Assembly: GCF_000002995.4 (NCBI RefSeq)
Contig: NW_025062475.1
Coordinates: 10,668,187 to 10,732,186, forward strand
DNA: 64,000 nucleotides
Source of the DNA: Brugia malayi
Taxonomy: Eukaryota > Nematoda > Chromadorea > Rhabditida > Onchocercidae
Direction of reading: 5' to 3'
Below, one piece after another: positions 48-61,397 of this stretch. Under the pieces are notes generated by a model, which was not told the DNA's origin, did no database searches, and saw only the letters and a list, made by a program, of their open reading frames with translations. Within the stretch, counting starts at the first letter, position 1, and the number at the start of each line of letters is the position of its first letter. The position numbers were made by a program, and so were the translations under genes.

Positions 48-54
48 TATTTAA
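48..54 (+). promoter_or_regulatory. TATA-like box of histidine-rich peptide gene 1
   Basis: TATTTAA lies about 175 bp upstream of the start codon at 227. The three paralogues carry TATATAA at similar distances (about 180-200 bp) from their start codons. The shared spacing is the only support; no transcription start is known. Confidence 0.4.
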
Positions 55-226
55 GTTGTTCTCAATTCATTTCCACCGCGACATTCTCATTAATTCTTCT
101 CTTCCTCATTAAGTTAGAACAGGGCAATATTTTCTAAATATTTTTTTAAATTTTTATTTCTGTTCCTCACACAGTACTGTTGATTAAAGCTGCCGAATAA
201 CAATTTCAAGATTCTTTCAGGGGGAA

Positions 227-400
227 ATGGTATCACTAAGATTTGCCACAATATTATTGTTAGCTCTGTTGACAGTATCGGTGACAACATCTGACTGGTG
301 GGACGATGACTGGGATGAACCATGGCATCAGTATCATCACCATCACCATCATGGACACTTCCCTCATCAACATTTCCACCATCATTCAATAGGTCACTAA
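227..400 (+). CDS. Histidine/tryptophan-rich small secreted peptide, copy 1
   Basis: 57-residue protein. Residues 1-21 form a classical signal peptide (MVSLRFATILLLALLTVSVT). The mature part of about 36 residues begins SDWWDDDWDEPWHQY and runs into six consecutive histidines, then more His-rich sequence; 14 of 57 residues are His, 4 are Trp and none is Cys. The start was chosen because a good 3' splice site (TTCTTTCAG, ending at 220) sits six bases before the ATG and the paralogues at 54673, 55371 and 60855 start at the same residue. AATAAA motifs from 649 onward could end the mRNA, although they fall inside the neighbouring LTR. I recognise no named family. Metal or haem binding, or an antimicrobial role, is inferred from composition only. 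It is shorter than its paralogues because its His-rich tail is abridged. Confidence 0.75.
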   Translation: MVSLRFATILLLALLTVSVTTSDWWDDDWDEPWHQYHHHHHHGHFPHQHFHHHSIGH

Positions 401-4759: not shown

Positions 4760-4790
4760 GTTTTACAGAATTGTGAGGAAAGTAATGATA

Positions 4791-4949
4791 GGAAGTAACA
4801 ATTTGATAATCGAAGTCCCTACCCTACAGCCAGGAAGTAACAATTTGATAATCGAAGTCCCTACCCTACAGCCAGGAAGTAACAATTTGATAATCGAAGT
4901 CCCTACCCTACAGCCAGGAAGTAACAATTTGATAATCGAAGTCCCTACC
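4791..4949 (+). repeat. 42-bp tandem repeat, about 3.8 copies
   Basis: Units start at 4791, 4833, 4875 and 4917, each beginning GGAAGTAACAATTTGATAAT and ending CCCTACAGCCA. The unit is 14 codons long and is open on both strands (+ strand SNNLIIEVPTLQPG). Nothing around it supports translation, so I treat it as a minisatellite at the edge of the truncated LTR. Confidence 0.95.
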
Positions 4950-9173: not shown

Positions 9174-10524
9174 ATGGCTGTCATGAAGTCAATGTTGAAG
9201 ATAACACATGTGATTTTTGATTTGGATGGCTTATTGATCGATACTGAAGTAGTATTCTCGAAGGTAAACCAGTGTTTATTGTCGAAATATAATAAGGAAT
9301 TCACTTCGCATTTGAGAGGTTTGGTGACGGGAATGCCTAAGAAAGCCGCTGTAACATACATACTTGAACACGTTTGTTTATTTTTTATTCTCTGTTCAAA
9401 ACATTTTGTATAGCAAGCGACAATTCCATAATATTGAAAATATGTTGCTTCATCCCGTTTCATCCTCATTATGATTCCATTTTAATTCTATGTTATGAAC
9501 TTCATTTAGCCTGTTGCAAAAATTAAAATCACTTAAATTGCCAAAGAGATCTAAATATAAGACAACATTGTTGAAATTACTAGAGTAGTTTTGATGCTTT
9601 ATCTGCGTTACCTTAATTGTCCTTCAAAAAAATCTTCAGAAATTTGCGAATTCCTGCATATCACAATGGGAAAAAAGCTTCGAAAGATCAATTTTTAATT
9701 AGCTCTACTAATTGATTTTTTGATAAGATACGAAGTAGTTAATAAAAAGTTTGCTTAAAGGTTTTTTTTAGTAAATCTTGTAATTAAACATCGTTTCTAG
9801 GAAAAACTGTCCGGGAAAGTCGACGTTGACGAGTACTGTAGAAAGTATGATGAAATGGCGGAAGAAATGTTACCAAAATGTTCATTAATGCCTGGCGTGT
9901 TGAAGCTTATACGGCATTTAAAGGCTCACAGTATACCTATGGCTATATGTACTGGTTCAACCAAAAAAGAATTTGAGCTCAAAACTCAGTATCATAAGGA
10001 GCTTTTGGATTTGATATCTTTGAGGGCAAGTTTTTTTTTTTTTTGAGATTCAAATATATTATAAATTTTTTGTATGCTACATTATGTTAAAAAAGTTTCC
10101 CTTCTTTGCTCTCGTTTTGAAAGTATGTGTTCAGAAAACAGGCATTGAAGTTCGAAGTTTAACTGCTGAAGTTCTCAGACAATTAAAAAGAGGAAAACAA
10201 ATAATTTCATTCATTCAGGTTTTATCGGGTGATGATCCTGCCGTCAAACGAGGGAAACCGGCTCCAGATCCCTTCCTGGTAACAATGGCTAGGTTCGAAG
10301 AGAAACCTGAGAAAGCTAAAAATGTTCTCGTTTTCGAAGATGCAACTAATGGAGTATATGCAGCAGTAGCAGCTGGCATGCATGTTGTTATGGTACCAGA
10401 TTTAACTTACATGAAGATTCCTGATGAACTGCAAAATAAAATTAATTTGATACTTAGAAGTTTAGAAGATTTCAAACCAGAAAGCGTAGGATTGCCGGCG
10501 TACGATAGAGACAATAGCAAATAA
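9174..10524 (+). CDS. HAD-family phosphatase, pseudouridine-5'-phosphatase-like (paralogue 2)
   Basis: Exons 9174-9371, 9801-10025 and 10219-10524 give 242 residues. Motif I is FDLDGLLIDTE (Asp16 and Asp18), motif II AICTGST, motif III KRGKPAPD, motif IV LVFEDATNGV, and the C-terminus is FKPESVGLPAYD. The middle exon is exactly 225 nt, as in both paralogues. That length requires intron 2 to start with GC (AGG|GCAAGT at 10026), a GC-AG intron. The ATG directly follows a TTTCAG acceptor, so spliced-leader addition or the exon at 8655 would supply the 5' end. AATAAA at 10787-10792 probably ends the mRNA. It lies in tandem 1.6 kb after paralogue 1, in the same direction. Cytosolic dephosphorylation of a small phosphometabolite is expected from the family; the exact substrate is unknown. 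Confidence 0.9.
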
Positions 10525-11329
10525 GTTGTTGCTACCTTGCAGATTTTTTCTTGCAATTTCACAAAATGCAGGTATTCAAACTATTGTGGTTATCGGCGGA
10601 TTTTTCTAGAATTCTGTAAGATATAAAAATTTTCATGTATTGTTAAAGTAGAGTGATATAAAATTATCTTTATTTATTCATACCATTTCCATAGATTTTT
10701 TTGATATGATTTCATTCATCTTTCCAATCTGTAGTAGTTGTGTTTAGACCTTATCTGTGATGCTTATGTTGTGTTATTCAACTATTAATAAAGCTGTGTT
10801 TTCATTTCTCCATAACCAGTTCATCACCGTTAATACGATCATCTATACTGATTATTCCATCAGAAGAGGAAGCAATTATTTTAGATGTTCCCGTGAATGC
10901 TATTAGATATTCATATTGTATTCGATATTGCGATGCTGAATACATTCTACGTTCTCTGATGTTACAGGTTCACATATCCAATGCAACTTCACTATATTTC
11001 TCTTCCCTACCAATTAAGACGTAGTAATTAAAGTTTTCAGAAGATGTTCTGGGAAGTTCTGCTGTGTACAGAAATCTATTCAATTAAAATTTAACTAAAG
11101 TTTTTTTATCCAATCAGTCCGTGCACTTTTTTCAATAAAATGACTTGGATTGGATTTCTGTTATAGGTTTATGGATTACTTTGTTCCTTTTACAACTTGG
11201 ATTGTCCATCTGTGTTTTTTCAGCAGAAGTTAGAAGTCGTGAAGTAATTGCGGCCAGGTCAGTGTTTGACCGAAGTCACTTGGTCCTTAGATGGTTTATT
11301 TCTAGCGAAGTGCTGTGGATGTTGTACTG
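10525..11329. other. 3' region of phosphatase 2 and 5' region of ADAT2-like gene
   Basis: Contains the AATAAA at 10787 and, further right, a strong acceptor TGTTTTTTCAG ending at 11223 that may receive the spliced leader for the downstream gene. The ~0.8-kb spacing is longer than usual for a nematode operon. Confidence 0.4.
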
Positions 11330-11908
11330 ATGTCATTGGAAGAGAAATTAAACAAGGAAGAAGTTCATTTTTTGAATCGAGCCTTTGAAATAGCTGTAGA
11401 TGCAGTTGCTAATAATGAAGTTCCTGTTGGTTGTGTTTTTGTTTTCGAAGGTCAAGAAGTAGCTTTTGGGCGAAATGATGTAAATCGTTCGAAGAATCCC
11501 ACGTATCATGCAGAAATGGTTGCTCTTGAAATGATGAAACAGTGGTGCACGGATAACGGACGTGAGTTGGAGGACGTAATGCGCTGCACGACTCTATACG
11601 TTACCCTTGAACCATGCATCATGTGTGCTTCAGCATTATATCATCTGCATTTGAAAAAAATCTTATATGGTGCAGCAAATGAACGATTTGGTGGTTTACT
11701 TAGTGTTGGAACAAGGGAAAAGTATGGAGCTAAACATTTCATTGAAATTATGCCAAATCTTAATGTTAGTCGGGCTGTGAAGTTGTTGAAAGAATTTTAT
11801 GAGAAGCAAAATCCATTTTGTCCAGAAGAAAAACGAAAAATAAAGAAACCAAAGAAGTCACGAAGCATTGATGACACTTCCGATGACGTTACTGTTGTAG
11901 ATATCTGA
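11330..11908 (+). CDS. ADAT2: tRNA-specific adenosine deaminase 2-like subunit (ADAT2/Tad2)
   Basis: Single uninterrupted exon, 192 residues. The cytidine/deoxycytidylate deaminase fold is clear: VPVGCVFVF near residues 29-37, the zinc and catalytic motif HAEMVALE near residue 62, and PCIMCASAL near residue 96 with two zinc-binding cysteines. The flanking NERFGG and NPFCPEEK also resemble ADAT2. In eukaryotes ADAT2 is the catalytic partner of ADAT3 and converts adenosine 34 of several tRNAs to inosine. The C-terminus is a lysine-rich tail (KRKIKKPKKSRS) followed by an acidic end, likely tRNA-contacting or nuclear-targeting. The start is the first ATG in frame (MSLEEKL); the upstream codons contain no other ATG. 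It is unusual among its neighbours in lacking introns. Confidence 0.93.
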   Translation: MSLEEKLNKEEVHFLNRAFEIAVDAVANNEVPVGCVFVFEGQEVAFGRNDVNRSKNPTYHAEMVALEMMKQWCTDNGRELEDVMRCTTLYVTLEPCIMCASALYHLHLKKILYGAANERFGGLLSVGTREKYGAKHFIEIMPNLNVSRAVKLLKEFYEKQNPFCPEEKRKIKKPKKSRSIDDTSDDVTVVDI

Positions 11909-13168: not shown

Positions 13169-16100
13169 ATGGATGGGACTGAAGTAGCGAATAATGGAAC
13201 TCAAGAACTGCTGAAGTCTTCTTCATCTGATAAACGATTGAGAGTGCAAATTACGGAAGGAGATCTGGTATAATCTTTATAGTTTTTAATTGGATGTTTA
13301 CTTTCTTTGCTTTCTTAATCCTAATTACAAAACTACACTTTAGTCATTGGAAATCTGAATTGAATAACTAAGAATATTGTAGTGATTGAACGGTAACTAA
13401 TATGTAAGCATGGATTTTTCATGGATTTTTTTCTTAACCTTCAGATAAGCCAGGTCAGTTTTATCATGTTTTTGCAGCTAGAAATTAGGTAGTCGTTGAA
13501 GATGAGGAAAGCTTTATCTTGTTCTCAGAGTTAGACTAGATTTTGCCAGGACAAGAAAAATATGGCAATTAGTTTTTGCAGCTTTGTGTTAATCAGTGTG
13601 GTTTCTACGGTACACCACAATGGAAAGGGAGATGCTCGAAGTGTTGGCGAGCTTATCAAATGGAGGAGAAGAAAGCACAGTGCTATACTAAAAATAGGTT
13701 CTCAATAATTTTTTTCAAAAAATTCTGGGTTTTTATTTTGCTTACTGAGTTCCCTGCAAGTCAGTCTGTGTTTTTTATTTGTAGAGAACTTCTAAGTTTC
13801 GAGAAATTTGAAGGACGTCGGAAGCTATCAACAGAAAGTCGTTCACTTACGTTAAAATCGATTCTTCGAAAATCACCATCACTAACTGCTAATTCAAACT
13901 CCTCTCAAGGTTTGTCATTATTTGCATGTTATATTCAGCACTTCTGATAAGCTTGCGAAAAACAAATTTCATTTTTTTTTTCTCTTTTTTAAATATTTCG
14001 TTTGAGAAATGGTATTTACAACATCTGCATCACATTCTACACTACCATCTCCTGTTACACCAATAAGGTATTTCATTTTCTTTTTTCTTTGATAGCACTT
14101 ATTTGTATCTTTTTCTTTTAGTAGTTTCGTTTATTTCCGGTAATTTTTCTTCCATTTTACTTCTTAGCATGAACTTATAATTTAAAACATCTCCAATCTT
14201 TCTTCACTGCATATATATTAAAAAAAGAAAAAAGCAAGAGACGTAATAAGGGTGGATGAAAATTACATTAGTTTAAAAGAGAATAAAATCCAAAAGTTTA
14301 GTCGTTTCTTTACGCATATTACTGGAAAAATAATTGACTTTCATTGTTCTAATTTATGAAGAACATTTATTAATAACCAACTTCCAGACATCGTCTTAGT
14401 GAAGAAAGCAGCTCTGCTTATGATCGTTTTCACGAGTTTCTTCAAAATAATCTTCCGCAATCAGCTGCTCATGAAATAGCTCAGCAAACGCATCACGCTG
14501 TTGATAAAATTCTAGAAGTTAGCTTGATTTTCCTATCCAAATTTAATCATAGATAAGCAAAACACTGAGCAGGAATGCTTCAGTTCTCGAAATAAATTTT
14601 TTTTGAAATGATAAAATTTGAAGAGTTTTCTTGCTTACGACTACTTTTTGTAATTCTCTAGAATTGGGTTCGTTAAACTGGTACTTGAAATTGTGTAGCT
14701 TATTTGATTTCTAGCAGCAGAACGTTAATATGGATGACCTCTCAAGTATGGTGCAACATTTTTATCAGGTTTTAGCAGACAAAATGCGTCACAACCCCAT
14801 TATAAGTGGTAACTGTTTCGTTGTTAAAAATAAGTTTTTGAAATATTAATGTAGAACATAGAGAGCTTCATGAGTCTTAACATATTTTACGAAATAGTTC
14901 AGCAATTCATATATCTGATATGCCATGTTTCGTGAAATTTCAGGTTCATTGATTGATGTGAGTGTTGAAGAAGTAATGGGAGAAGTAGAGCAATATATAT
15001 GTGTACGGGCTTATAGCACATTGTTCTGCGCTAGGCATGTCATTTTGTTTTTTTCTGAACATGTATTTATTTAATTTTGTCCGGTTCATAAAATCTTTTA
15101 TGACTATTAAGATTACTTTTGTTATGGAGTAGAGTATCAGTAGAATTCTTGACTTTTTCTCATTTTGTTTAAAATTTTAAATATCTAAATTAGAATGTTT
15201 TTCTAGAGCTGACGAAGAAACTGCAGATCTATCTTTGCAAGATAGAATACGATCTTTGAATTGGGTTACAGCTGGTTTTCTGGAAACCACTCTTGATTTT
15301 AGTCAGGAATCGGTAAATTGCATCACTTCATCTGACGTATTCATTATTAAAAGACTTACATTTGAAAGTTTTTAATTGACAGGTTCGTGATAAATTGGAT
15401 GAAGCAATAACTGAGATTATTGATATGAACAGTCATCGTGGAGCAGCAGAAAAATTGCAATGTTTGGTTCGTTGCTCAAAAATGATCTTCGAGGCACTAA
15501 AGGAAAGTCGCTCAGGTTGGTGATATTGATCAGTACCAATGCTCTGGAACTTATTTTAATGTATCCTCGTAACATTGTAGTCGTTTTGATTAATATTAAT
15601 AGTTATGCTGAGATGTATTTTTAAATTGTTAAAACAGCTGTTAACGAGTCATCACAGAATGTAAAATACTTTTTACTAGTAGAATAAGTCTGTAATAAGT
15701 CAGAATAATTTCTGTTTTTTTTTTTCTTTTTTTTTAACAAATCTAAAAAAAATACATCTTAGTATAACTACTTTTTTTTTGTGGTAGTAAGATTTTCTTT
15801 TTTTTTTTTATAGGCCCACAAAACCAATTTTTAAATACATCTTTTTTATTAATTCTTTGGAATTGTTATTCCTTTCCATAACTGCGATATACGTACGGTT
15901 TATCCTAAGATGTTTTTTTATTTGTAGGCGCTCCGGCTGGTGCCGATGAATATTTGCCGGTTTTGATTTTTGTAATTCTAAAGGGAAATCCACCACTTAT
16001 TCAATCGAACGTCAAGTTTGTCAGTCGATTTGCTCTACCTGCCAGGGTTTTAAGTGGCGAGTCAGGTTGTTCGACTCTTAACTTTTTTGTAAAAGAATAA

Positions 16101-33947: not shown

Positions 33948-36330
33948 TTGGTGTCAGCCGGAAAATGTCTAAGCGCACGACCGGTAAAAGAAAAATTAGA
34001 AGCTCTTCTCAAAGAAGCCCAGGAAATGGATCTAACGCCTTCGGAGCAAATGTTGACCAGAGAAGAAACCTGTCAACAGCACGAAGTTCGAGAAAGAATT
34101 ATTGAAGAAAAAATATGTCTCAAACAGCATATTGGCACACTTGAGACAATTAAACTAATTGGATCCAATATATACAACAGGTTCCAATAACGGAGAACAA
34201 GAAGACAAATACGCCCAAATGGTCGAAGATAAAAAATGAAATGAAGTCATCATAACCATAAGTTTATAGAATGACTTAGAGTTAGCAATCCAACGCCTTA
34301 AAGAAGGCGAAATAAAGGAGCAACCAACCCAAACATCCAACAGTTAACTTATCCCAACTACTACTGTCTACCTTCAATGGTAATCTTAAATTGTGGAAAG
34401 GATTCTGAGTAGTATTGAAGCTGCAGCCTATTTGCAAAACATACCAGACATCCAAAAATTAAATTATTTAATTGCCTTGTTGGGTTATAACCCCAGAAAA
34501 TTATGATGTAATACGGAAAATCCTTATTGGAAAAAAATGCAATCCCACATCATTAAAAAAATGCTGCATATTTCATTAAAATAATCGAGAGTGGAAGATA
34601 ACAGTTGAAGCTACTGAAAGAATAATTCGATAACTTGATGCAATGGGTAAGAATCCCTAACAATCCAATTTCAAATTGTCATTGAAAATAAACTATTCGC
34701 CTGGATTCTGGACATAGTATATCAAAAAAAGGAGAAACAGAAATATGGTCAGTAACTAAGCTAAGACAACTCTTAACAAAATTATCTAAAGAAACGAAGT
34801 TACAAAAAGCCAATTCTTTGACATCATAAAAGAGCAAAAGGTAACTAAAAGTAAAATTGGTCCACGGAATAATCATAATCAAGGATTAGCCCGTTTTACG
34901 AAGAAACTTCGGCTTTAACTATAAGAACACTGAAAACATATGCAAAAGCTAATACGAAGATTAGCAAAACCCAAAGACCATGTGCATTTTGCAATAAGAA
35001 CTAGGGATAATGAATGCCAAACTTATCTTAGTCTATAACGAAGAGTGCAACGACTGAGAGAAAACAACGTCTGTATAAACTCTTCAACCAGGACATACGA
35101 CAGTCAATTGCAAGACAAGAAAACGTGTATGTTTGTACTGCAAAGGTCATCATAATACCGCGTTATGCTACACTAAGTATAACGATCAGGCACAATCACT
35201 GGGACCAATCGAAGAAGATACAAGACGGCAAAGCCAATCTAGTTATAAAGCATTCGATACGAAATGACAAAGAAGTTTTGCTCTTTAGCAAAAAAGTTGA
35301 AGTAATTAATTTAGATATGCCAAAAGTTTCAAATAAAATTGTAGTTTTATTCGAGCAACGTGTATATCAAAGAAACTAACAAGAAGATTACACCTAGAAG
35401 ATATTGATTATGAGCAAGTGGCATTCGCGGGATTCGACAATAGAAACCATCAAACATTACTTTTTGCTAAAGTGCGAATTGGAATAAAAACGATAGAAGC
35501 AGATATTATACATATTGTAGCCACAGTAGTCGACTATTTAACAAACAAAATAAGGGTAATATCTGTAGATCAAGACAATGCATCAGAATGTTTCAACTCT
35601 GTTTCCATTAACAGAGGAAATTAGCAGTTGGAAACCGCCTAACCTAATTATCGGAGTTGACTATTTCTTCAAGTTTATCTCTTTAGAGAAAGCCCAAATT
35701 ATAAATTCAGGGTTTTCTTTAATCAACACAATAGTCGGCCCTATGAATGCTGGAAGTGGATATATAAACAAGCATAATAATCATAAACGTGGTAATCACC
35801 TCAACAAGATGGTAACTCAAAGCACATGCTGTTCCTTTCAGAATGAGGATCAAACCACCATTACACCTATTAACATTCCAGTGATTGATCGATTCTGGGA
35901 ACTGGAATTCATAGGAATACATTCAAGAATAACTTAATCTACAGGATGACGAACAAGTTTTAGAAAGGTTCAAAGGAAATATCACAAAAAACAATGGTAG
36001 ATACCAAGTTGCTTGGCCATGGAAAGAATCCAGAATCAAATTAAACGACAATTTCGGATTGTGTCTTGGTCGCCTAAGATCCTTAACTAAACAACTTCAG
36101 AACGATGAACTCAAATATGACGAAACGATTCGCGATCAGTTACTATTTGGCATTATCGAAAAGGTATTTGCAGAGATGGACCAGTTGGAGTTACTACCAA
36201 TAAAAAGAAACCGCAACGATTCCTTTGGTTAAAGGATATAAACGGACAAGTAATAGATGATAATATTGAATATTATCGATTTAAACGAGTCCCATTTGGA
36301 ATAATATCATCACTACTTTTATTATCCGCT
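33948..36330 (+). pseudogene. BEL/Pao retrotransposon gag-pol remnant, truncated in reverse transcriptase
   Basis: Read in order on the + strand through many stops and frame changes. A gag-like N-terminal part begins at 33948 (coiled, charged; KEKLEALLKEAQEMDL). A core gag block lies near 34370-34500. A zinc knuckle sits at about 35120-35170 (CLYCKGHHNTALC). The protease/linker region covers about 35280-35900 (LIIGVDYFF, then GPMNAGSG), followed by the start of reverse transcriptase (DDEQVLERF, RVPFGII). It stops abruptly at 36330 within reverse transcriptase and joins a segment in the opposite orientation. Bases 35853-36330 nearly match 1040-1508. The copy cannot be functional. Confidence 0.85.
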
Positions 36331-37014
36331 TCATATTTTCGTTCTCTTCTCCTCCCTCACTTCTAATTTTTTTTCTATTTTCACTTCTTTCTTTTGAATA
36401 TGACTAACCTGCTTTGACGCATTTCCCTTTTTTGTTGCTGCAAAGAGAATGAAAAAAGATATTCTTCTTCATTAATAAAAGTATTTATCGTTGCTGGGAT
36501 AGTTTATCCTTTCAATAATTGATGAAATTAACTTGCTTAAGAGATGTGATCAGTTTAGCATAGTGAAAATCAATTTTTATCAGAATGTTGAATGGCATGC
36601 ATAAAAGACTGCAATTTTAAATTGTTAAGACTGGTCAATCGGATTCGAATGACCGATTTCCAAAAAATAATAAAGCCGCTGACTGCCACTCAAACCGGGT
36701 AGGTATTAGCAACAGAAACGATCAACCTTACATGCTAGTTAATCGGACAATCAATCGTTGGGGACAAAACAAACACAAACATATAATAGTTGCATGCCTC
36801 TCCGTTTCCATCAAAATAATTCTTTTCACTTTTAGCTGAATAGCGATAAGCGATAAGTGTGGACAAATTATTAATCAGTGATAATCAGAAAGATAAAGGG
36901 AAAATATATTATGAACATACAATTTGAATGTAATGCATGCATGTCAACGACAAATCCAAAATGTTTTTTTTTTTGAAAGATTTGTTTTGGAAGAAAGATT
37001 TGAAAAATTTGTTT
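36331..37014 (-). repeat. Second copy of the 800-bp element-leader segment
   Basis: Nearly identical to 3958-4653. It follows LTR C in that LTR's direction of transcription (minus strand), which fits a 5' leader. The junction at 36330/36331 with plus-strand pol sequence is abrupt and joins two element pieces head to head. Confidence 0.75.
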
Positions 37015-37532
37015 TGGGAGAGGTTTGCTGATCTCGAGGAGATTTGTTAGATGTAGATATTAATATATGGGGTAGCACAGGAGTATAATAATTCCTTTAT
37101 CAACAGTAGCAGTAGTACAATAAACTTGAGAAAAAATGAAGTACAAGCAGCGAAAATCCCTTTTTATAGTTGAACTCTCCCTCAGTAAAAACACACATCC
37201 TAATTGAACATGAGTGACCTCTTTGTATAGCAAGCAGTATGCATAAACAAAGTAAGCGATTTACAATAAAAACTTGCCGATTTGCCGAAAGAGAAATCAG
37301 CCTAATAAAGAGCTGTTGATCTGATTTACAAAAAATTGTTAACCTCACAGATTCAAACATAATGAGATCAACTAACTGAGGAGCTGATACCGTGTAAACA
37401 ATGTATGAAAGACAATCTGAACATAAGATTGGAAACAAAGAATTTAAGGTACAAACATTGCATTGCAAAAAGTTTATAGAATATATTTCTTATATTTTCT
37501 ACTCTCATATGATATTTTAGAGTTTCGCGATA
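37015..37532 (-). repeat. BEL/Pao LTR C, full length, minus strand
   Basis: About 518 bp. Read on the minus strand it begins near TATCGCGAAAC, where the family start is TGTCGCGAAAC, so the terminal base has mutated. It contains TGTTTACACGGTATCAGC, a TATAAAAA promoter motif (37161-37168 complement), and ends AACCTCTCCCA. It is the most complete LTR in the window together with LTR D. Confidence 0.8.
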
Positions 37533-40500: not shown

Positions 40501-42898
40501 CTTTGCAACAGCCTTCAACTTCTTGAAACTTTGTTACGCTGTTCTGATTGTTTATTACTGAGTGTCTTTGTCACACCAAATAAAAACTAATTTAAAATTG
40601 AAAATCGAATTAAAATTGATACATTAATTAACATTTACATAAACGAACAATTTATAAAACTGACAGCCATCACTGGCAATATGTTATCATTGATAATGTT
40701 GTTGTTAAAACTTGAAAATTTCTAAGTGAAAATTTCAGAAAATCTGCACCAATTTGAACTCAATTGCCCATTTTTCAATTTCAATGGCGTGGTCAATGAC
40801 GGATTGAAATTTTAATGTTCTAAATACTTTATTATTCACATTAATTATTTTCATTTCCTTTGTTTTAAAACTTTTTTATGTTGTTCGTTTTCATCTTGCT
40901 TAATTCTATTTATTTATTGCTGAAGTTTCTTTTACAGATCGGGTATCAACTTGTGTTTTAATTGAGTTTGTAATATTTCAAGTTTAAATGTATTTGAATA
41001 TTTAATATTTTTGTTATTTCGGTTGCAATTCAATTAACTGTGCTTATGTCATATGGAGTCTTCCTTTTGGCTTTTTTATACATTATTTATGCAATCTTCT
41101 TTTTGGTTAAATTCGAAAATTTTTGAAAAGTTTCTGTCACGGTGACATCATTGTTCATTGTATGCTCTTTTTACATGTGTCATGAGTTAGTATCCAATTT
41201 GGTAGCTGGGTAGTCATCTATTGTAAAATAAACTGATATTTTCCCTTAATGTTTATTTTCGTGCACTAAAATAAATGAAGTTGAGCATTCTTTAAGCTTA
41301 AATTCTTTAATCTGAGCTAAAATTTTTCCAATTTAGAATTTTTAAACTTTTGAATTTTAGACACTTAACTTTTTAGTTTTTTGGATTTCTTTTCTCTCTT
41401 AAATTTCCTGCTTTCATTTGTCAAATTCCGGAGTTTCTGAATAAGTTTTAAGTTTCTCAAACTTTAGATTAACTTCCGGACATTTCAAAAAAAAATGAAT
41501 TTTCTATTTCAATTTCTAATTTTGAATCATGACATTTGTGGAATTTTTAGATTTCTTCTTGAATTTTATCAATTTTCTGCTGTTTTTATTATCCTTTTGA
41601 GTTGTTATTTAAACAATTTACCTTCCTATTTTTTTTTAAATGTTTCATACCGTTTTTGGATTTTTTGCGAATTCAGTTTCTCTATTTCCATTTTTCATAT
41701 TCCAAATTATCACTATCATTTTAATCATTAACATCTTCAACAATTTTTTCTGCATTTTCGAGCCTTTTACCCCATTTTTAAAGTTCTTTACACCTTTAAT
41801 TTTCTAGATTTTATTTGTTACACATTTTCCAGTTTTGTATTTCATTAATTGCTTGTTTCCACTTGTTAAAAATTTTGGAATTCTTCTATTTTTAAGTCAA
41901 CTTGTAACTCTAAATAGTTTCTTTCTTGCGTGCTTTCCGAGTATTTTATTTCCATTTCTCATGTATTTAATTAATTTCATAGCTGCATGCAATGACGATG
42001 TGCATTTTTCGATATTTTTACCACGAAAATTTTCCGAGGTCTTTTCTCTTCAGTTTTCAAATTATCGTATCGATTTCTCATTTTATTCAAAATTGAAATA
42101 AACAATGAAAAACATGAAGAAAAAGCTGTTCCATTCCACCTCTTTTTACGTTCTATTGGTACTTTTCATAGTTTCAAATCAATTTCTACCAATTTTTATG
42201 CAGATTTTCTCTATCAATTAATCGATTTAAATCCATCGCTATGAAAATTTGTAATTTTTTCTTTTTTTGAAAGTCTTTCATTAAATTTACATCATTAACA
42301 TGAAACTAATTTTGCTTATTAATGTATGCGCTGAAATTATTTAATTTCTTTCAGTTAACATTGCTTTTGAACTATTAATTTTTCTTGAATTTTTTGTAGC
42401 ATTTCAAAGTTTTTCAGTTCAAAGCAATTTAAATTATTAAATTCAAAAGTGCAAGATTCTGAACTATCATCAGATTTCAGAATTCAAGCAATGTAATTTA
42501 TCACAATTAGTATTTTATCAATCACATCTGCTAACTATATCACAGGAAGGTGCACCTATTAATCATTCAACCAACACTAATTGATCCAATTTCCATTCAA
42601 AATTAAATATTTCAATATCTCTCTGGCAAAGTTAGATGTTCACGCTAAAAAATGATTATCATGTGATCGGTGTTTACATATCATATATTTCATTTTATCT
42701 TATCATGCAACATTTGCATTCTTCCATAACTGCGCGTAGATAGATGTTCAGAGAAATAGAAATATAGAAGAGTATTTAAAACAGACAGAACCAAAAATTT
42801 TCATAACGGTGCCACATGATTACTGGATTAGATACAAAGGCGGAAATTTGAGATGGCACTGTTTTTGCTGGTTGGTGAAGTGTTGTCCGGAAGTGATT
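37533..42898. other. Long intergenic region, mostly empty
   Basis: About 5.4 kb with no supported gene apart from the micro-ORF at 40075. The stretch 41200-42110 is strongly T-rich on the + strand and yields hydrophobic spurious frames. A minus-strand frame at 39019-38765 (84 codons, Cys-rich and hydrophobic) starts with ATG but shows no domain. Confidence 0.4.
40075..40203 (+). CDS. Possible micro-ORF or orphan exon, unrecognised
   Basis: 42 codons from ATG to TGA, with an unusual composition for this AT-rich region: VPEDYWPFYNDIYQKMNEWA is rich in Tyr, Trp, Pro and acidic residues, and the DNA (40120-40200) has visibly more G and C than its surroundings. An acceptor-like CACTCACTAG ends at 40110 and a donor-like GTAAAT lies at 40196, so it could equally be an internal exon. 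No neighbouring exon was found and no family is recognised. Confidence 0.25.
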   Translation: MYYMNEHYFALTSSTNIVPEDYWPFYNDIYQKMNEWAAPPSK

Positions 42899-43037
42899 GA
42901 ATGAGTGGATGGTGACGAGTGGGCCGAAAAGTTGAATGAGTGAATGGTGACGAGTGGGCCGAAAAGTTGAATGAGTGGATGGTGACGAGTGGGCCGAAAA
43001 GTTGAATGAGTGGATGGTGACGAGTGGGCTGAAAAGT
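42899..43037 (+). repeat. 35-bp tandem repeat, four copies
   Basis: Units of 35 bp (ATGAGTGGATGGTGACGAGT followed by GGGCCGAAAAGTTGA) start at 42901, 42936, 42971 and 43006. They differ by single bases (TGAATGG in the second, GGGCTG in the last). The array lies 0.3 kb upstream of the TMX2 start. An antisense frame through it (42776-43123) is a by-product. Confidence 0.95.
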
Positions 43038-43360
43038 CTTTTTAAATTTTGACTTTTATTTTGATTGTTGCTGTTAATGGAGTGAGTTCCATATTGTTTT
43101 GAAGTGTTATGTTGAACGGTCAAATGTTGTCTTAGTAAGTTCTTAAGATGTATCGCTTCTTTGTCATCAATGATCTTATATCATACACACATGCAGAAAT
43201 GTTATTTCTGTTTTTTATATTTATCTGAATTGTTCGAATAATAATCTTTCCATCTCATTTCAGATGTTGTAAACACTCTGCAATTGCCTACATATTTTTG
43301 ACTTCTTTCAGTTGTCTTTCTCAAAGAAGTTTCACAAATTTTAGCCTTCAGTAATTCGAT

Positions 43361-54672: not shown

Positions 54673-54861
54673 TCATCCTTCATGGCTCAATGAATGATGA
54701 CCATCGTGTTGATGATGGGAGTACTGGTGGTGTCCATGATGGTGATGGTGATGATACTGATGCCATGGTTCATCCCAGTCATCGTCCCACCAGTCAGATG
54801 TTGTCACCGATACTGTCAACAGAGCTAGCAATAATATTGTGGCAAATCTTAGTGATACCAT
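54673..54861 (-). CDS. Histidine/tryptophan-rich small secreted peptide, copy 2
   Basis: 62 residues on the minus strand. The signal peptide and start of the mature peptide are identical to copy 1 (through WWDDDWDEPWHQY and six His). The tail then differs: GHHQYSHHQHDGHHSLSHEG, with 15 His overall and no Cys. The reverse strand of this locus is also open but reads Asp/Gly repeats from the His codons and is discarded. It is arranged head to head with copy 3, 509 bp apart start to start. A TATATAA box lies on the minus strand at 55046-55040. Confidence 0.75.
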   Translation of the reverse strand: MVSLRFATILLLALLTVSVTTSDWWDDDWDEPWHQYHHHHHHGHHQYSHHQHDGHHSLSHEG

Positions 54862-55370
54862 TTGCTCTTAAAAAGTTTTAAAGATTTAGAAGTTTTAGAA
54901 ATGTTTGCAACATTAATGGACGTTGCCGATAAGAAACATAAAAATTGAAGGAATATTCAAAGATACCACCTTGCTTCAATTCAATGAGAAAGAAAAGAAT
55001 TAGTGAGGATATCATGGTATAAATCAACTGCGAGCTGTCTTATATATCTGAAATGAGGTCACAAGCTAATAATGATACCTGCAGAACAGGAAATGGAAAA
55101 ATTAAGATCTGAACTATAAACAAATTCCCTTCCCATTAACCTAATTCTAAGCCTGTTTCAGTATTTGATATATAAGCATCTCTTTTCTGAACTTCCTTAT
55201 AGCAACCTGAACAGAAGACCTCTTCTAACAAGTACTCAGTAAGTTTCTCAATTACTCTTCTTTCCTTACTAAAATTTAATTATCTGAATTAGTATTTACC
55301 TAAACCATCTTTTCAATCATTTGTTTGACACAATTTGATGACTGAAATACTAATTATCTGTACTGAAGTG
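54862..55370. promoter_or_regulatory. Shared divergent promoter region of histidine-rich copies 2 and 3
   Basis: The 509 bp between two start codons hold opposed TATA boxes: TATATAA on the minus strand at 55046-55040 and on the plus strand at 55169-55175. The two core promoters are only ~120 bp apart. On the plus side a GTAAGT donor at 55239 and an acceptor-like CTGAAG ending at 55368 suggest a 5' UTR intron. Functional co-regulation is inferred. Confidence 0.5.
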
Positions 55371-55588
55371 ATGGTAGCACTACGACTTGCTGCGGTATTA
55401 CTGTTAGCTCTGTTGACAGTATCGGTGACAGCATCTGGCTGGTGGGATTTTGACTGGCATAACCCATGGCACCAATATCATCACCATCATCATCATGGAC
55501 ACTTCCCGTGGCATCAGCATTTCCATCATCATTCACATCACAGTGGTCATCACTCATTAGGTCATGAAGAATGGAAATGGGATTGAAA
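55050..55588 (+). repeat. Inverted duplication, left arm
   Basis: About 540 bp covering the promoter, 5' UTR and entire coding region of histidine-rich copy 3. It recurs in inverted orientation at 60853-61397 with few differences. Similarity stops just after the stop codon on one side and at AAATGAGGTCACAAGC on the other. Confidence 0.9.
55371..55586 (+). CDS. Histidine/tryptophan-rich small secreted peptide, copy 3
   Basis: 71 residues: signal peptide MVALRLAAVLLLALLTVSVT with probable cleavage after Ala21, then a ~50-residue mature peptide beginning SGWWDFDWHNPWHQY. Six consecutive His follow, then PWHQHFHHHSHHSGHHSLGH and the end EEWKWD. It has 19 His and 7 Trp, and no Cys. An in-frame ATG at 55338 would add 11 residues (TEILIICTEV), but the start at 55371 matches the paralogues, gives a clean signal peptide and sits just after a possible acceptor. 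It is essentially identical to copy 4 (one Gly/Ala change). Metal binding is inferred from composition only. Confidence 0.8.
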   Translation: MVALRLAAVLLLALLTVSVTASGWWDFDWHNPWHQYHHHHHHGHFPWHQHFHHHSHHSGHHSLGHEEWKWD

Positions 55589-56090
55589 TTTTTCCACAGA
55601 TTCATATTAAATATCGTTTCGTTGGTATCTTTTGGACTTTGTGATTTCTGATAAACAAATCTAAATGAATGATCTTCTTGTTATTGTCGTTGCAATTCTT
55701 AGTACATTCATTGAACTTAACGCCAACAAAATGTAAAAAATTTTTGAAATAAAAGGCAAATTAAGCACCAAAACAAGTGTACAAAGAAGCAAAAAGATTT
55801 CTGATTTTATTTAATAAAAATGCGATAAAAATTAAAATTTTGGTAGAATCAATTGATTGTTTCGACAAAGCTTTCCGTATGTGAATGGTGTGCAGTTCCA
55901 TAGTAATAAATGGTGCACAGTACTTATCAAATTAACAAATTTAGACAAAAAAAATTTTCATTTGAATTACTTTTCAGTTCAGAAATAATTATCTCTTACA
56001 AAATCAATCATTCAGTGCATTAACTAATTATTTTGAAATTTTCACTAATGCCTATCAAGAGTTTTGGAAAATTTGAAAATTTAATTATTT
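55589..56090. other. Spacer between histidine-rich copy 3 and LTR D
   Basis: AT-rich DNA with no gene; it would hold the 3' UTR of copy 3 (an ATAAAA-type signal near 55749). Confidence 0.4.
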
Positions 56091-56641
56091 TGGGAGAGGC
56101 TGCTGGTCTCGGGAAGATTTGATGGATGTAGATGTAAATATGTGGGGCTACAGAAGAATATAATAATTATAATAATTGCTTTGAATTGCAGAAGCAATAG
56201 TACAATAGCTTTATTGAGAACTGAAGTTGAACCCTCCTGATTCTTGGTAAAAACACGCAATATCCTCTTGAACAAGGATGACCTCCTTATGTAGCAAGCA
56301 ATATACGTAAACAAAGTATGTGATTTATAATATTAGGTTGACCTTCTGAAAGAGTAATCGGTCTAACAAAAAGCTGCTAATCTGATTTGAAGGAAGTCAG
56401 TTAAGCCAAAGTGGTTAATGGTGTAAATTCAAACATAATTTACAATTAATGACGAAATAATAGCTATGAGATCAACTAAATAAGAAGCTAATACCGTGTA
56501 AACAATCTATTTGGAAGATGAAAACAAAATAAATGGTCTACATGAAATAAGACAACTTTTAGTTTTATGGATATAATACAATTTTATTTGATATACTTTG
56601 TTATTTGGAGGTTTGCAATACTTATTTCGAGTTTCACGACA
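56091..56641 (-). repeat. BEL/Pao LTR D (3' LTR of a minus-strand element)
   Basis: About 550 bp; on the minus strand it starts TGTCGTGAAACTCG and ends GCCTCTCCCA. It contains TGTTTACACGGTATTAGC. Its first half is near-identical to LTR A. It directly follows the polyprotein C-terminus at 56642-56893, so it is that element's 3' LTR. Confidence 0.8.
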
Positions 56642-56893
56642 CTCCTTATTGAATGAGCTGAATGCTTTCAGGAAGTTGGATACCTGTGTTTGAACACAGG
56701 TAAGCAACAGGTTCATGTTTATCGATCTCTGAATTGATTTGTCGAGCACTGTTCGTTGAGAGTCTGAATTTCCTTCATCGTCGATTTTCAATGGACACAG
56801 CATCTTTCCTGGTTCATTGAGAATTTTTTTTTGTGGTAATTTTATTACGACACTAATTATTTCTTCATCCCTTCCTCTTTTAATTTCCTTCAT
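56642..56893 (-). pseudogene. BEL/Pao polyprotein C-terminal end
   Basis: Minus-strand frame containing KRGRDEEIISVVIKLPQKK and GKMLCPLKIDDEG, recognisable as the segment that follows integrase in BEL/Pao polyproteins (typically RGRDG...KLL.RPIN.LYPLE). The rest of the integrase is found at 59485-60450 on the same strand, so the coding region is split by a 2.6-kb insert. The frame itself is not disrupted here until it enters the LTR. Confidence 0.8.
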
Positions 56894-56910
56894 TTCATAT
56901 TAATTTTTGT

Positions 56911-57240
56911 GAAAATCTTACAATTTGTAAGAGCTTTTGTATATTAAACTTGGAAATAAATTTTAGTATTATCAAATTTCATTTTAATTAAGTGTTAAAC
57001 TATTAAAAAATAGCAACTCATTAAAAAAATAGATTACTAGAACTTAGTTCATTATTTTATATGCATAGTGCGGGAACTGGTCACATACATTGTGGTCATT
57101 TGACAGCATAAATAAAAAGATAAACTTTAATAATTAGGTTTTGAACAATATTTCACTAGCGAAATTAATAAAAATTTTTAATTTGTCGTAGTTTTAATTC
57201 ATTTTTTACAATTGAAATTAATTCATATTTCAATCTGATC
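56911..57240 (-). repeat. ~330-bp direct repeat, copy 1
   Basis: Shares most bases with 59150-59480, including CTTACAATTTGTAAGAG / CCTACAATTTGTAAGAG, TTATTTTATATGCATAGTGC and TTGTGGTCATTT. It lies at the left edge of the insert that splits the BEL/Pao element. There are no LTR-like terminal motifs that I can identify. Strand is nominal. Confidence 0.8.
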
Positions 57241-57985
57241 TTCCATATATAAGCCTAGTAGTTAATTGCATATAATCGCCTAACTTTTAATTGTAAGGGA
57301 TTTGGAAATTTTATTTTCATACTATAAAAAAAATAATGTATATATGTTAGTTGACAATTATTGCATGAATAAAACATTATTTACTTAAAACAAAGGTGAA
57401 ATTACTCAATCATTACTCAGTAATTATTCAATCGGTGTTTCGTTTAATCATCATTACCTAATTTGGAAGCTTTTAACCGGGATAAGTTTATAATTCATTA
57501 CAGTTAAGCTTAATGATTGAAATAAATTCATTTTTATTTTAGCATACTATCTAATCTTGCTACCTCTATTAGCAGCGTGAAAATGCTAATAGAATGTCTA
57601 TTTGATGTCCATGTTGACCAGTCAATATCATTTGCGCCAGTTTCAATTTCATTTTTATCACCAACAAATGCAAAACTTTCTTTTAATTGTTGCCGTCAAA
57701 TCTACAACAATTAGTAATAACTTAAATAGGAATTCAATAATTTCTATAAAAAGATTCTAACTTCGCCGTAAAATAAAAGGTATAAGAAAAGAGATATAAC
57801 TGTCATTTAAATTCATCCACAAAAAACAAAAAAATTGAATTATGAGAATATATCGAATAGTTGAAAAAAGAGAATAATTATAGATTGTTTCATTTAATTT
57901 TCGACTTAAATTAAAATTGCTGTGTACGCACTGGTCGAATGAATAAAATACTGAAAGTAATTTCTCTAAAATTAAATGGAACAAT

Positions 57986-58854
57986 CTATAATTTTTGGGT
58001 CAAATGGTAAGCCAGGTAACCAAATAGAAACAATGTAAATATGCCAAATGAGCCAAATATTGAGCCTTGAAGAAAAAAAAGTTATATTGAAAAAAATTTG
58101 AAATTTCCTAATTAAATTGAAAATTAACTTGATTTTCATTTTCATTTTTTTCTTACTCTGTGACTAGTAATTCGATATTGGTACATTTTAGACAGTTGGT
58201 ATTTATTGGCCAGCAAAAAAAAAGAAAAAAATTGAGCAGAGCAATTTAACTATAAACGGTGTACTATACGTACCAATAACTCTCAAAAATTCCGTAAACT
58301 AAGTTAAAATAAAATTCCTTGAAATTTCCCACATTTATCATCATAATAAAACCGGATTAAAGTACTTTCTAAAACGATATAATCAGGCCAATCAATCCGG
58401 ATTTTCTTGCCGAAAAATGAGTCTCGACAAGAGAATACAGTTATGCACCAATAATACCAAAAACAGTATCAATACTTCTCAAAATACCTAACCATGACGC
58501 TGGTAAGCCTTGCGATTTTGCGCAGCCAAAGGCTATCTTAAAAAATGACAAAAAAATGCTATTTTTACTTCATAATTTTAATCATTCTATATTTATAAAT
58601 TATTTTATTATTTCATTTTATTTTATTCAATAATTTTAAAAACTTCCAAAGCATATCAACAAATTAAAGTAGAAATTGATTTTATTAATTGTATTTAGCA
58701 AAATTTCTCGAAAAAAAAAGGGTACGCTATCAAATCCAAGCACAGTCATATACAATTGTTGATAATAAATGTAAAATAATGTAAGCCATTTGACAACTGT
58801 ACGTTGTATGAAAACTTGGATATTTCTTGCAAGATTCAATTTTTCTTTGTTTAT
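57986..58854 (-). pseudogene. Ferroportin (SLC40A1-like) pseudogene fragment
   Basis: Three minus-strand pieces resemble the C-terminal half of the iron exporter ferroportin. 58854-58726 contains LYMTVLGFDS (human LYMTVLGFDC). 58536-58444 continues in phase as IAFGCAKSQGLPASWLGILR then SIDTVFGIIGA, matching the segment after GFDC. It is then cut by an in-frame TAA (58443-58441), after which the same frame goes on as LYSLVETHFSARKSGLIGLI before a second stop. 58065-57986 encodes a last helix (IFGSFGIFTLFLFGYLAYHL) like the family's final segment. The N-terminal half and the stretch between the last pieces are absent or unreadable. Nonsense codons inside conserved sequence indicate a dead copy; a functional paralogue may exist elsewhere. 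The first two pieces are firm, the last is weaker. Confidence 0.7.
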
Positions 58855-59149
58855 CTGAAAGGTTTCAAAATTTCGAATTAGTTCAAATAATAATTAACCT
58901 TTAAACAAATGTTATTTGTTTCATTTAGAAAAAATGCCGTTTAATTAATTAAGTGATTCTTTCTATTACTCAAATAGGATTATGAAAAAAAAAAAATAGA
59001 AAATTTTAAAAACTGGAGATTTAGAAATTAATTTACAATTGAATTAAAAGTAAAAATTGAATAAAAAAATTAATTAATAGAATTTTTAATTATTCATAGT
59101 TTTAATCCATTCTTAAAATTAATTTTATTTCCAAATTTAAATATTGATT

Positions 59150-59480
59150 GTTATGAAAATCCTACAATTTGTAAGAGTTTTTGTATAGTAAACTAGAAAA
59201 TAAATCCTAGTTTTATCAAATTTCATTTTAATTAAATGTTTACACTATTAAAAAATATCAACTCATTAAAAAAAAAATAGATAAATAGAACTTAGTTGAT
59301 TATTTTATATGCATAGTGCCGGAAATGGTCATATGCGTTGTGGTCATTTTGACAATTGAAATCATAGAACAAACTTTAATAATTAAGTTTTGAACAGTAT
59401 TTCAGTGGCGAAATGAAATTTTTAATTTGTCATAGTTTTAATTCATTTTGACAATTAAAATTTCTATTTCAAATTTAATA
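59150..59480 (-). repeat. ~330-bp direct repeat, copy 2
   Basis: Same orientation and sequence family as 56911-57240. Just before it, 59083-59149 resembles the tail of the same unit (TTCATAGTTTTAATCCATT compared with TCATAGTTTTAATTCATT), so the right edge holds a partial unit plus a full one in tandem. Confidence 0.8.
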
Positions 59481-59484
59481 TTGT

Positions 59485-60450
59485 TTTTTTGGCTAATCTG
59501 GCCAGTTTCCAAATGCCACGGGAAATTTCTAGTTCATTGACCAACACAATTTCATCCTCACGGAGATCTCTCGCTACTACATCTCTCGGAGATTCTTTCT
59601 CGAAGACTAATCAGATACCCATTTCTCTATGCGTCCCAAAATGTGTCTAAACCTTGAGAGTGTTTGACCAACATTTAATAATTTTCTCTTTAGTATTTGG
59701 TTTGTGCGAGAAAATTCTTCCAGTTCATTGTCGTTAATTGCGGGAAATGTTGGGTGAAACGAAATTAACTGGGCATATGATTAAACAATCTTCAAAATTA
59801 GCGAACGAGTATTTAATATGTTTTCTATTTTATTGTTATTAATTCCCTTTCTCATTACAATTTTCTGCCATGGCTTTTCTCACAGTCCTTTTGGTTATTC
59901 CAGTCTTTATTTCATAAACTTCTTTATCCCATGGAACTCTCAGTATGGTTTTTTCCCATATCATTCCATAATGATTTGGAAAACTAATTGAAATTGGTTG
60001 TCATTATCACTCAAGATTAATTTATGGTAACCTCTTCGGACAAACGAATCTTCTTAATAAGTGCAAAAAGATTTCGCTCGATAGATTTTCTACCAGTTCT
60101 AAATGTACTGCTCTTGTTTGAAACATGTGAAAAGCGCCATCCATCGATCTCAATTTTAATAGAAAAAGGACTCATATAATCTAATCCAACTTATTCAAAT
60201 ATTCGAGAACGTGTGATTCGAGTTTGTGGAAGATTCGGCATGGCCGGGAATTTAAATGGTATCTCTCGCAAAACCATACATTTGTTCAATATTTGCTTAA
60301 TTTCGGTTCTACCTTTGGGTATGTAGAATTCTGTTCTCAATTTCAACTGCGTATGTGCAGTTGCAGCATGGGTAATTCCCCGTGTTGTTGTTATATAACT
60401 AACTCAGATATTGGGTTGTATCGTGGAAAGTAAATCGAGTGTAAAATATC
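59485..60450 (-). pseudogene. BEL/Pao integrase remnant
   Basis: Minus-strand sequence reads in broken frames through integrase landmarks: FYIPKGRTEIKQILNKC, then PAMPNLPQTRITRSRIFE, VGLDYMSPFSIK, RRGYHKLILSDNDNQFQLV, GITKRTVRKAM and finally ISRGIWKLARLA near 59490. Stops and frame changes interrupt the order, so it is inactive. Its C-terminal continuation is at 56893-56642, beyond the insert. A 69-codon plus-strand frame at 60224-60433 is only the antisense of this remnant. Confidence 0.8.
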
Positions 60451-60852
60451 TTCATTCAAGAAAATTTTAATTCGAAAATTTTCAGCATAATCATAATTTT
60501 TTTCTTGCCTTCATCGAATAGATCTTTCGGATAACATTTACTGGGTAATCGAAGGGATGATATATCGTAATCGGTTATAGTTGCATTAACTTATGGAGAT
60601 GTCAATAATGAGTTAGATAATTAATGTTTATATACTATGGGTTTTTAACAATAGTTCTATGTTGTGGTTCAATAGTGACTAATAAAGGAAAAAGTGAGTG
60701 ATAACTTATCATTGACTGATTAAATGTATTTATTTTTGCGGCAGAGAAGTCACTTTTATATGAATAACTCATGAAATGCGCCAACATAATTTATTTCTTT
60801 TCAATAATTAAAAAACAAAGATAAAAAAATTAACGATTTAATAAATTTCAGT

Positions 60853-61397
60853 TTTCAATCCCATTTCCATTCTTCATGACCTAATGAGTGATGACCACTG
60901 TGATGTGAATGATGATGGAAATGCTGATGCCACGGGAAGTGTCCATGATGATGATGGTGATGATATTGGTGCCATGGGTTATGCCAGTCAAAATCCCACC
61001 AGGCAGATGCTGTCACCGATACTGTCAACAGAGCTAACAGTAATACTGCAGCAAGTCGTAGTGCTACCATCACTTCAGTACAGATAATTAGTATTTCAGT
61101 TATCAAATTGTGTCAAACAAATGATTGAAAAGATGGCTTAGGTAAATACTAATTCAGATAATTAAATTTTAGTAAGGAAAGAACAGTAATTGAGAAACTT
61201 ACTGAGTACTTGTTAGAAGAGGTCTTCTGTTCAGGTTGCTATGAGGAAGTTCAGGAAAGAGATGCTTATATATCAAATACTGAAACAGGCTTAGAATTAG
61301 GTTAATGAGAAGGGAATTTGTTTATAGCTTTTTGTCAGATCTTAATTTTTCCATTTCCTGTTCAGCAGGTATCATTATTAGCTTGTGACCTCATTTT
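60853..61397 (-). repeat. Inverted duplication, right arm
   Basis: Near-identical inverted copy of 55050-55588, carrying histidine-rich copy 4 with its promoter. It includes the TATATAA box (61272-61266 on the minus strand) and the GTAAGT donor (61202-61197). Confidence 0.9.
60855..61070 (-). CDS. Histidine/tryptophan-rich small secreted peptide, copy 4
   Basis: 71 residues, identical to copy 3 except Ala for Gly just before the first Trp pair (SAWWDF versus SGWWDF). Signal peptide, six-His run and EEWKWD end are conserved, so the open frame has been kept since duplication. TATATAA at 61272-61266 (minus strand) is in the same position as in copy 3. It lies about 0.4 kb from the BEL/Pao integrase remnant. 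Function unknown. Confidence 0.8.
   Translation of the reverse strand: MVALRLAAVLLLALLTVSVTASAWWDFDWHNPWHQYHHHHHHGHFPWHQHFHHHSHHSGHHSLGHEEWKWD

Follow-up and report, generated by a model that had tools for sequence, protein, structure and literature searches.

What are the very short, histidine- and tryptophan-rich reading frames found in one region of the Brugia malayi genome, and what could their products do for a filarial worm? The region lies on contig NW_025062475.1 of NCBI RefSeq assembly GCF_000002995.4 (C135 below), and the window analysed here is the whole 64,000-nucleotide stretch C135:10668187-10732186. An earlier note, made from the letters of this stretch, had described a four-member family of tiny secreted peptides with a putative metal-, haem-binding or antimicrobial role. 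The reading frames almost certainly represent a genuine gene family under selection. It has so far been met only in filariae, and none of the sources searched gives it a name. As to function, there is about an even chance that the products are secreted, probably disordered, pH-switched peptides that bind zinc, copper or nickel, and perhaps haem.

A cluster of seven genes

Searches of the whole genome (86.8 Mb, 139 contigs) found seven family copies, all with open frames, in one 78-kb cluster; repeated searches, in which only the best candidates were scored, returned the identical seven each time and none further. The four open reading frames (ORFs) reported earlier were recovered intact at the same coordinates and on the same strands. 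These genes, S5, S7, L5 and L7, encode 57, 62, 71 and 71 residues with 14, 15, 19 and 19 His and 4, 4, 7 and 7 Trp, in agreement with the lengths and compositions given for them, including the lack of Cys, which extends to all seven copies. The family size of four has to be revised, as three more copies (S6, L4 and L3) lie 0.3-17.3 kb to the left of the window (C135:10650963-10667910). Four copies are of a long form (71-72 amino acids, C-terminal WKWD) and three of a short form (57-62 amino acids), S6 and S5 encoding the identical protein. Six of the seven form three head-to-head long/short pairs, referred to as units A (S6/L4), B (S5/L3) and C (S7/L5), and L7 is a solitary copy, D.

This composition stands out locally. 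Among 226 ATG-initiated ORFs of at least 50 amino acids in 142 kb, seven contain at least 20% His, and all seven are family copies. Twenty first-order Markov controls together gave no such ORF, with the limitation that they yield fewer ORFs (mean 108.5 each) and match real DNA imperfectly. A scan of the 142 kb around the cluster for similarity to the leader likewise found only the seven copies (scores 80-95), the next best score being 30.

Purifying selection between the copies

The ratio of nonsynonymous to synonymous change (dN/dS) was obtained by Nei-Gojobori counting for nine chosen pairs of the 21 possible, with gapped codons excluded and no ratio given for pairs without a synonymous difference. 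Between paralogues it is 0.12-0.26 over the whole protein (8/9 pairs computable) and 0.07-0.16 over the mature part (7/9). L3 and L5 differ by 17 synonymous changes over 41.8 sites and 15 nonsynonymous changes over 171.2 sites, a dN/dS of 0.16, which divides into 0.08 for the mature part and 0.33 for the leader. The value for S5 and S7 is 0.13, and that for the leaders of L5 and S5 is 0.52. L3/L4 and L5/L7 are very recent pairs, too close for selection to be judged. The comparison of Ka/Ks between copies that the earlier note had proposed thus yields values far below 1: there is purifying selection between paralogues.

Because a bias towards transitions could raise the number of synonymous changes counted in His codons, neutral evolution over the observed distance was also simulated for three pairs, with 2000 runs at each of the transition/transversion (ts/tv) rate factors 1.5, 3 and 6. 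From L3 to L5, no run at any factor (0/2000 each) had as few amino acid changes as the 12 observed, the neutral mean being about 22; a stop codon was gained in 87-94% of runs, and all 18 aligned His were retained in 0, 0 and 2 runs. From S5 to S7, the observed conservation was reached in 1, 5 and 4 runs. From L5 to S5, it was reached in 0/2000 at each factor, and the His retention of 14/15 in 19-46 runs.

Features of the predicted peptides

All seven copies and the Loa loa protein P0005 combine a leader of the form MV.LR.A..LLLALL.VSVT.S, a WWD.DW..PWH.Y core and at least five consecutive His. The core reported as WW..DW..PWHQY occurs in all four genes for which it was described. A run of exactly six His is likewise present in those four and is not general, since the left-hand long copy L4 has HHHHHR and Loa loa LOAG_17952 has seven His. 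The common leader of 22 residues, already noted as a signal sequence, does resemble a signal peptide when judged by eye, and the peptides are probably secreted.

Cleavage was assumed, on visual inspection, to follow VTA or VTT. On this basis the properties of the mature part were calculated for L3, L5, L7, S5 and S7 and for two Loa loa proteins, leaving out L4, which has one Arg for His, and S6, whose protein equals S5. The five Brugia mature types have 36-51 residues, with an acidic Trp core and a His-rich C-terminal part behind the leader; they contain 35-39% His, 4-7 Trp, 5-8 Asp/Glu and 0-1 Lys/Arg. Their computed net charge is -4.1 to -8.2 at pH 7.4 and +6.6 to +14.2 at pH 5. An AlphaFold2 model built from seven sequences places a helix at residues 2-29, mostly in the leader, and nothing regular beyond (predicted local distance difference test, pLDDT, 52-60; predicted template modelling score, pTM, 0.31), so that the mature part is predicted, though weakly, to be disordered and to lack a fold.

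The scarcity of basic residues also affects detection. The computed short mature peptides contain no Lys or Arg, and the long ones a single Lys near the end, with one extra Arg in L4. Computed trypsin cuts leave the short peptides whole and divide the long ones into a piece of 48-49 residues and WD. Almost no usable tryptic fragments would result, which may be one reason why such peptides escape notice.

Relatives

The only full-length relative found among 5.8 billion proteins is the 71-amino-acid hypothetical protein LOAG_17952 of Loa loa, 71% identical to L5. It shares the leader, core, His run and WKWD end of the Brugia copies but has seven rather than six His in the run. As no Brugia entry appeared among the protein matches, the family genes are probably unannotated in Brugia. 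A second hypothetical protein of Loa loa, LOAG_11164 (63 amino acids), was reached by profile search at E = 0.033. Its leader equals that of LOAG_17952 at 18/21 residues (pairwise 20/41 identities, E = 5e-13), whereas its mature part is rich in Arg, Gln and Lys, with an isoelectric point of 11.9, 2% His and a charge of +11.6 at pH 7.4. When LOAG_11164 was itself used to search for related proteins, no protein other than the query came back, and queries with LOAG_11164 and with the leader plus core found, at their sensitivity, no copy of this type in the Brugia genome. The His codons CAT and CAC are one base away from codons for Arg (CGT/CGC) and Gln (CAA/CAG), and HHHHHR of L4 is one such change; drift between the His and the Arg/Gln mature types is therefore conceivable.

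The earlier statement that no named family has this plan is borne out by the databases searched. For P0001-P0005, no Pfam family scored above its cut-off, the best by bits being Metal_resist (13.7 vs 29.2); for P0001-P0006, no NCBIfam model did so (best 14 bits vs 272). A sequence search of the PDB gave no family and one chance-level match (E = 0.73), and Rfam had 0 matches on the window at gathering scores. Literature searches by name returned no paper for LOAG_17952 or LOAG_11164, and among the matches listed, no title or abstract opening described the family. Two metagenome proteins, P0007 and P0008 (E = 1.2), were judged to be His-rich but unrelated and were not considered further.

Proposed extracellular metal binding and its rivals

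Metal binding by a run of six His is chemically near certain. Judged by composition and by precedent in nematodes, metal or haem binding appears to be the best-supported function of the family. The peptides may be made in quantity, as TATA promoters and copy number would suggest, and could use their natural His run and HH.HH..HH clusters to bind zinc, copper or nickel (possibly haem) outside the cell. Such binding would depend on pH, because most of the 14-19 His should be uncharged at pH 7.4 and become charged at pH 5, with net charge moving from -4/-8 to +7/+14. The metal-loaded peptide might then serve the worm as a buffer or store, deny metal to others or act as a zinc-dependent tether to glycosaminoglycans as described for p43, while the Trp/Asp core may anchor it to a partner or surface.

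The precedent comes from Ts-PCHTP of Trichinella and the p43 dorylipophorin of Trichuris, nematode proteins with a natural His-rich tail. Ts-PCHTP is presented as a His-tailed metalloprotein that binds iron, nickel and zinc, and the interaction of p43 with glycosaminoglycans as contingent on zinc. These proteins differ from the family in being Cys-rich and belonging to clade I nematodes, and p43 is a lipid carrier, whereas the peptides described here have neither Cys nor a recognised fold.

Several points weigh against this interpretation. The Trp core is not the best-kept part of the protein, as L5 and L3 differ there by five nonsynonymous changes in 37 sites and four synonymous ones. The His retention of 13/14 between S5 and S7 is not unusual under neutrality (411-539 of 2000 runs), and gene conversion between copies, of which there are signs in units A and B and none in unit C, can mimic constraint. 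With one full-length relative found outside the genome, conservation reaches a depth of two genera. A His-rich composition is no proof of a metal role, poly-cysteine domains of the Ts-PCHTP/dorylipophorin type are absent (0 Cys in 7/7 copies), and Ts-PCHTP is reported not to be excreted. The predicted disorder, finally, derives from a shallow alignment of seven sequences (pTM 0.31).

Other explanations account for part of the same evidence. The copies could encode a structural peptide of eggshell, microfilarial sheath or cuticle, whose His, Trp and Tyr would be cross-linked by oxidation or quinone chemistry, or which would be hardened by metal. A bulk product of this kind would fit the high copy number, the TATA promoters and the low-complexity composition, and Ts-PCHTP is reported from the cuticle; but the peptides are very short, and with one or two Tyr per computed mature peptide and no Cys, dityrosine or disulphide cross-linking is hardly available, which leaves a structural role unlikely, if still worth considering. 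It is rather unlikely that the products belong with the histatins, hebraein or the mosquito HHH peptides as antimicrobial or immune-type peptides active at acid pH or with zinc. Such a role has been proposed for secreted peptides rich in His from vertebrates and blood-feeding arthropods, and LOAG_11164 shows that the shared leader can precede a cationic mature part (+11.6 at pH 7.4). Against it, all five computed Brugia mature types and LOAG_17952 are anionic at pH 7.4, the mature part is conserved and not diversified, and no helix is predicted (at low confidence) past residue 29. Because of the net charge of -4 to -8 at pH 7.4, a classical cationic antimicrobial is unlikely, and the histatin-like role suggested earlier is weakened, the peptides being cationic only at acid pH. 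Histatins, clavanins and shepherins, which are covered in a review on zinc and antimicrobial peptides, are also short, secreted and His-rich, but they are cationic or built of Gly-Gly-His repeats, whereas the family is anionic at pH 7.4 and rich in Trp and Asp. The arthropod proteins come from another phylum and have another repeat plan. Like the family, the Aedes salivary HHH peptides and the Simulium H-rich proteins are described as secreted and His-rich; the former are regarded by their authors as candidate antimicrobials, and the latter are termed acid proteins, for which matrix binding or zinc chelation was suggested. Neither group is known to have a Trp core.

Filariae are not known to make haem themselves, and a peptide devoted to haem carriage or detoxification would suit such worms. 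Its HHPHHDGHH-like clusters resemble motifs of histidine-rich glycoprotein and Plasmodium HRP2. Haem binding by such His-rich proteins is mentioned in the literature. Loa loa, which is not known to carry Wolbachia, keeps the gene, however, arguing against a tie to symbiont haem, and a dedicated haem role is improbable. More improbable by far is that the frames are non-functional and arose from a CAT/CAC simple repeat spread by duplication. The six-His run does consist mostly of alternating CAT and CAC, and recent duplicates are nearly identical; yet all seven copies are open, when neutral drift would have put a stop in 87-94% of L3 to L5 runs, dN/dS is 0.16 and an intact relative exists in Loa loa. 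A microsatellite as the sole origin was rejected by the neutral simulations.

The metal-binding reading has one further, doubtful extension. In this extension, one conserved leader would define a filarial family of both anionic, metal-gripping His6 peptides and cationic, Arg/Gln-rich ones such as LOAG_11164, and this family might serve to compete with host S100 proteins for metal where worm and host meet. The title of one reference names host calgranulin C as filariacidal, and a review ascribes copper binding to its S100 family. That a worm peptide competes for metal with host S100-type proteins is speculation.

Duplication history

Units A and B are inverted copies of each other over 1136 bp (99.8% identity), C and D share 544 bp (97.2%), and the alignment of A with C spans 877 columns (81.3%). 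Both inverted pairs are convergent, with their arms facing each other. A blended 132-base query matched the three short and the A/B long copies at 97-98% and the C/D long copies at 86%, a result that leans towards the former, from which the query was built. The synonymous distance (dS) is 0.22 for the partners L3/S5, 0.58 for the long copies L3/L5 and 0.51 for the unit C partners L5/S7. Since L3 is closer to its partner S5 than to L5, and L5 is not comparably close to S7, these distances suggest gene conversion between partners restricted to units A and B.

From 2-3 bases past the stop codon, the 3' flanks of the four long copies show no convincing mutual similarity, while the arms are 97-99.8% identical up to that point. 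What weak matches exist between flanks (E no better than 0.003) fall in AT-rich sequence and do not keep the register, and the flank of C is single-copy over its first 300 bases. A single ancestral palindrome with arm-to-arm conversion would explain the unrelated 3' flanks through one boundary event. Beside unit B, a 203-bp segment (664-866) is a 99% inverted copy of 56390-56592, which lies 0.8 kb downstream of L5; the cluster therefore appears to be a recent mosaic.

Promoters and gene model

A TATA-like box precedes every copy at -179 to -202 from the ATG, in keeping with the similar spacing first seen in the four window genes (-179, -185, -202 and -202), and the long copies have an additional TATAAA at -252 to -256. 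The octamer TATATAAG, a pattern picked after the sequences were viewed, occurs nine times in 142 kb on both strands, five of these before family genes. Downstream of the nearer box, all four long copies have CA|GTAAGT and then an AG two bases before the ATG, an arrangement that points to a non-coding first exon and a short intron in the 5' untranslated region (5' UTR). A motif scan did not find the CAGTAAGT donor before the short genes. In S7, three ATGs between the TATA box and the start codon (54862-55046, minus strand) would precede its own ATG unless they are removed by splicing or trans-splicing.

A block at 55130-55250 differs between A and C at 2/121 positions (98% conserved), as against 128/374 in the remaining intergenic region (66%); the block bounds were set after a sliding comparison, and the Fisher p of 5e-16 is therefore optimistic. 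A 201-base query (55060-55260) matched only the four long copies in the genome. Constraint on a promoter/exon-1 block would be the simple reading, the alternative being a conversion tract.

Table 1. Positions of the family genes and associated elements (window numbering unless prefixed C135)
Feature	Position	Strand	Details
S5	227..400	+	short-type gene, 57-aa precursor, unit B
S7	54673..54861	-	short-type gene, 62-aa precursor, unit C
L5	55371..55586	+	long-type gene, 71-aa precursor, unit C, head-to-head with S7
L7	60855..61070	-	long-type gene, 71-aa precursor, solitary copy D
S6	C135:10650963-10651142	-	short copy, unit A
L4	C135:10651645-10651860	+	long copy, unit A, partner of S6
L3	C135:10667695-10667910	-	long copy, unit B, partner of S5, just left of window
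TATA-like box of S5	48..55	+	TATTTAAG, -179 from ATG; putative function
TATA box of S7	55039..55046	-	TATATAAG, -185 from ATG; putative function
TATA box of L5	55169..55176	+	TATATAAG, -202 from ATG; putative function
TATA box of L7	61265..61272	-	TATATAAG, -202 from ATG; putative function
Presumed 5' UTR intron of L5	55239..55368	+	GTAAGT...AG, ends two bases before ATG; from sequence motif
Conserved non-coding block of long genes	55130..55250	+	TATA box, presumed non-coding first exon, GTAAGT donor
Left arm of inverted duplication C/D	55051..55588	+	promoter and L5; ends 2 nt past stop codon
Right arm of inverted duplication C/D	60853..61396	-	promoter and L7
Starts of unrelated 3' flanks, long copies	55587 onward; 60854 backward; C135:10651864 onward; C135:10667691 backward		

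Other features of the window and genome

A dispersed repeat at 1044-1508 and 3957-4759 matches 35864-37123 with 98-100% identity between the two sites, its left copy being split by about 2.4 kb that include a piece of Pao/BEL retroelement peptidase (1656-2090). Exons resembling HAD-like hydrolases lie at 7105-7530, 8994-9410 (below the Pfam cut-off) and 10024-10521 on the plus strand, apparently in tandem, and are followed by a TAD2-like tRNA deaminase exon (11306-11905) and an A20 zinc-finger exon (13573-13944). Tandem repeats with units of 37, 42 and 35 bp occupy 2192-2487, 4748-4949 and 42897-43071, respectively. Elsewhere in the genome, several tRNA-synt_2 loci show repeated exon patterns (C137:10.85-10.89 Mb, C137:13.60-13.62 Mb, C105:8-11 kb and C138:5.73 Mb). 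Two cytosolic AsnRS-like exons, one on C137 and one on C138, agree with PDB 2xgt, the Brugia malayi enzyme, one of them at 64/64 residues and the other at 58/60, where one of the two differences falls at a presumed exon edge. This suggests a multi-copy AsnRS family. A DHFR exon agrees with PDB 8e4f, from Wuchereria bancrofti, at 76/79 residues; taken with the 2xgt matches, this indicates Brugia as the source. Two exons of mitochondrial-type AsnRS carried no information on the species.

Implications

Should the genes be expressed, their products would be secreted nematode peptides of very small size and very high His density, naturally His6-tagged, and easily missed by standard gene prediction, given their short ORFs, and by trypsin proteomics. 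When these parasites are studied with nickel columns or anti-His-tag reagents, the peptides might then serve as markers or turn up as contaminants, and the promoter/exon block of the long genes offers a ready element for studies of TATA promoters in filariae. Expression of the peptides would also indicate that filarial worms handle metal or haem outside their cells. A leader-defined family, if true, would add to the secretome a part that stays hidden, since so few Lys or Arg occur in the computed Brugia mature peptides that these would yield almost no usable tryptic fragments.

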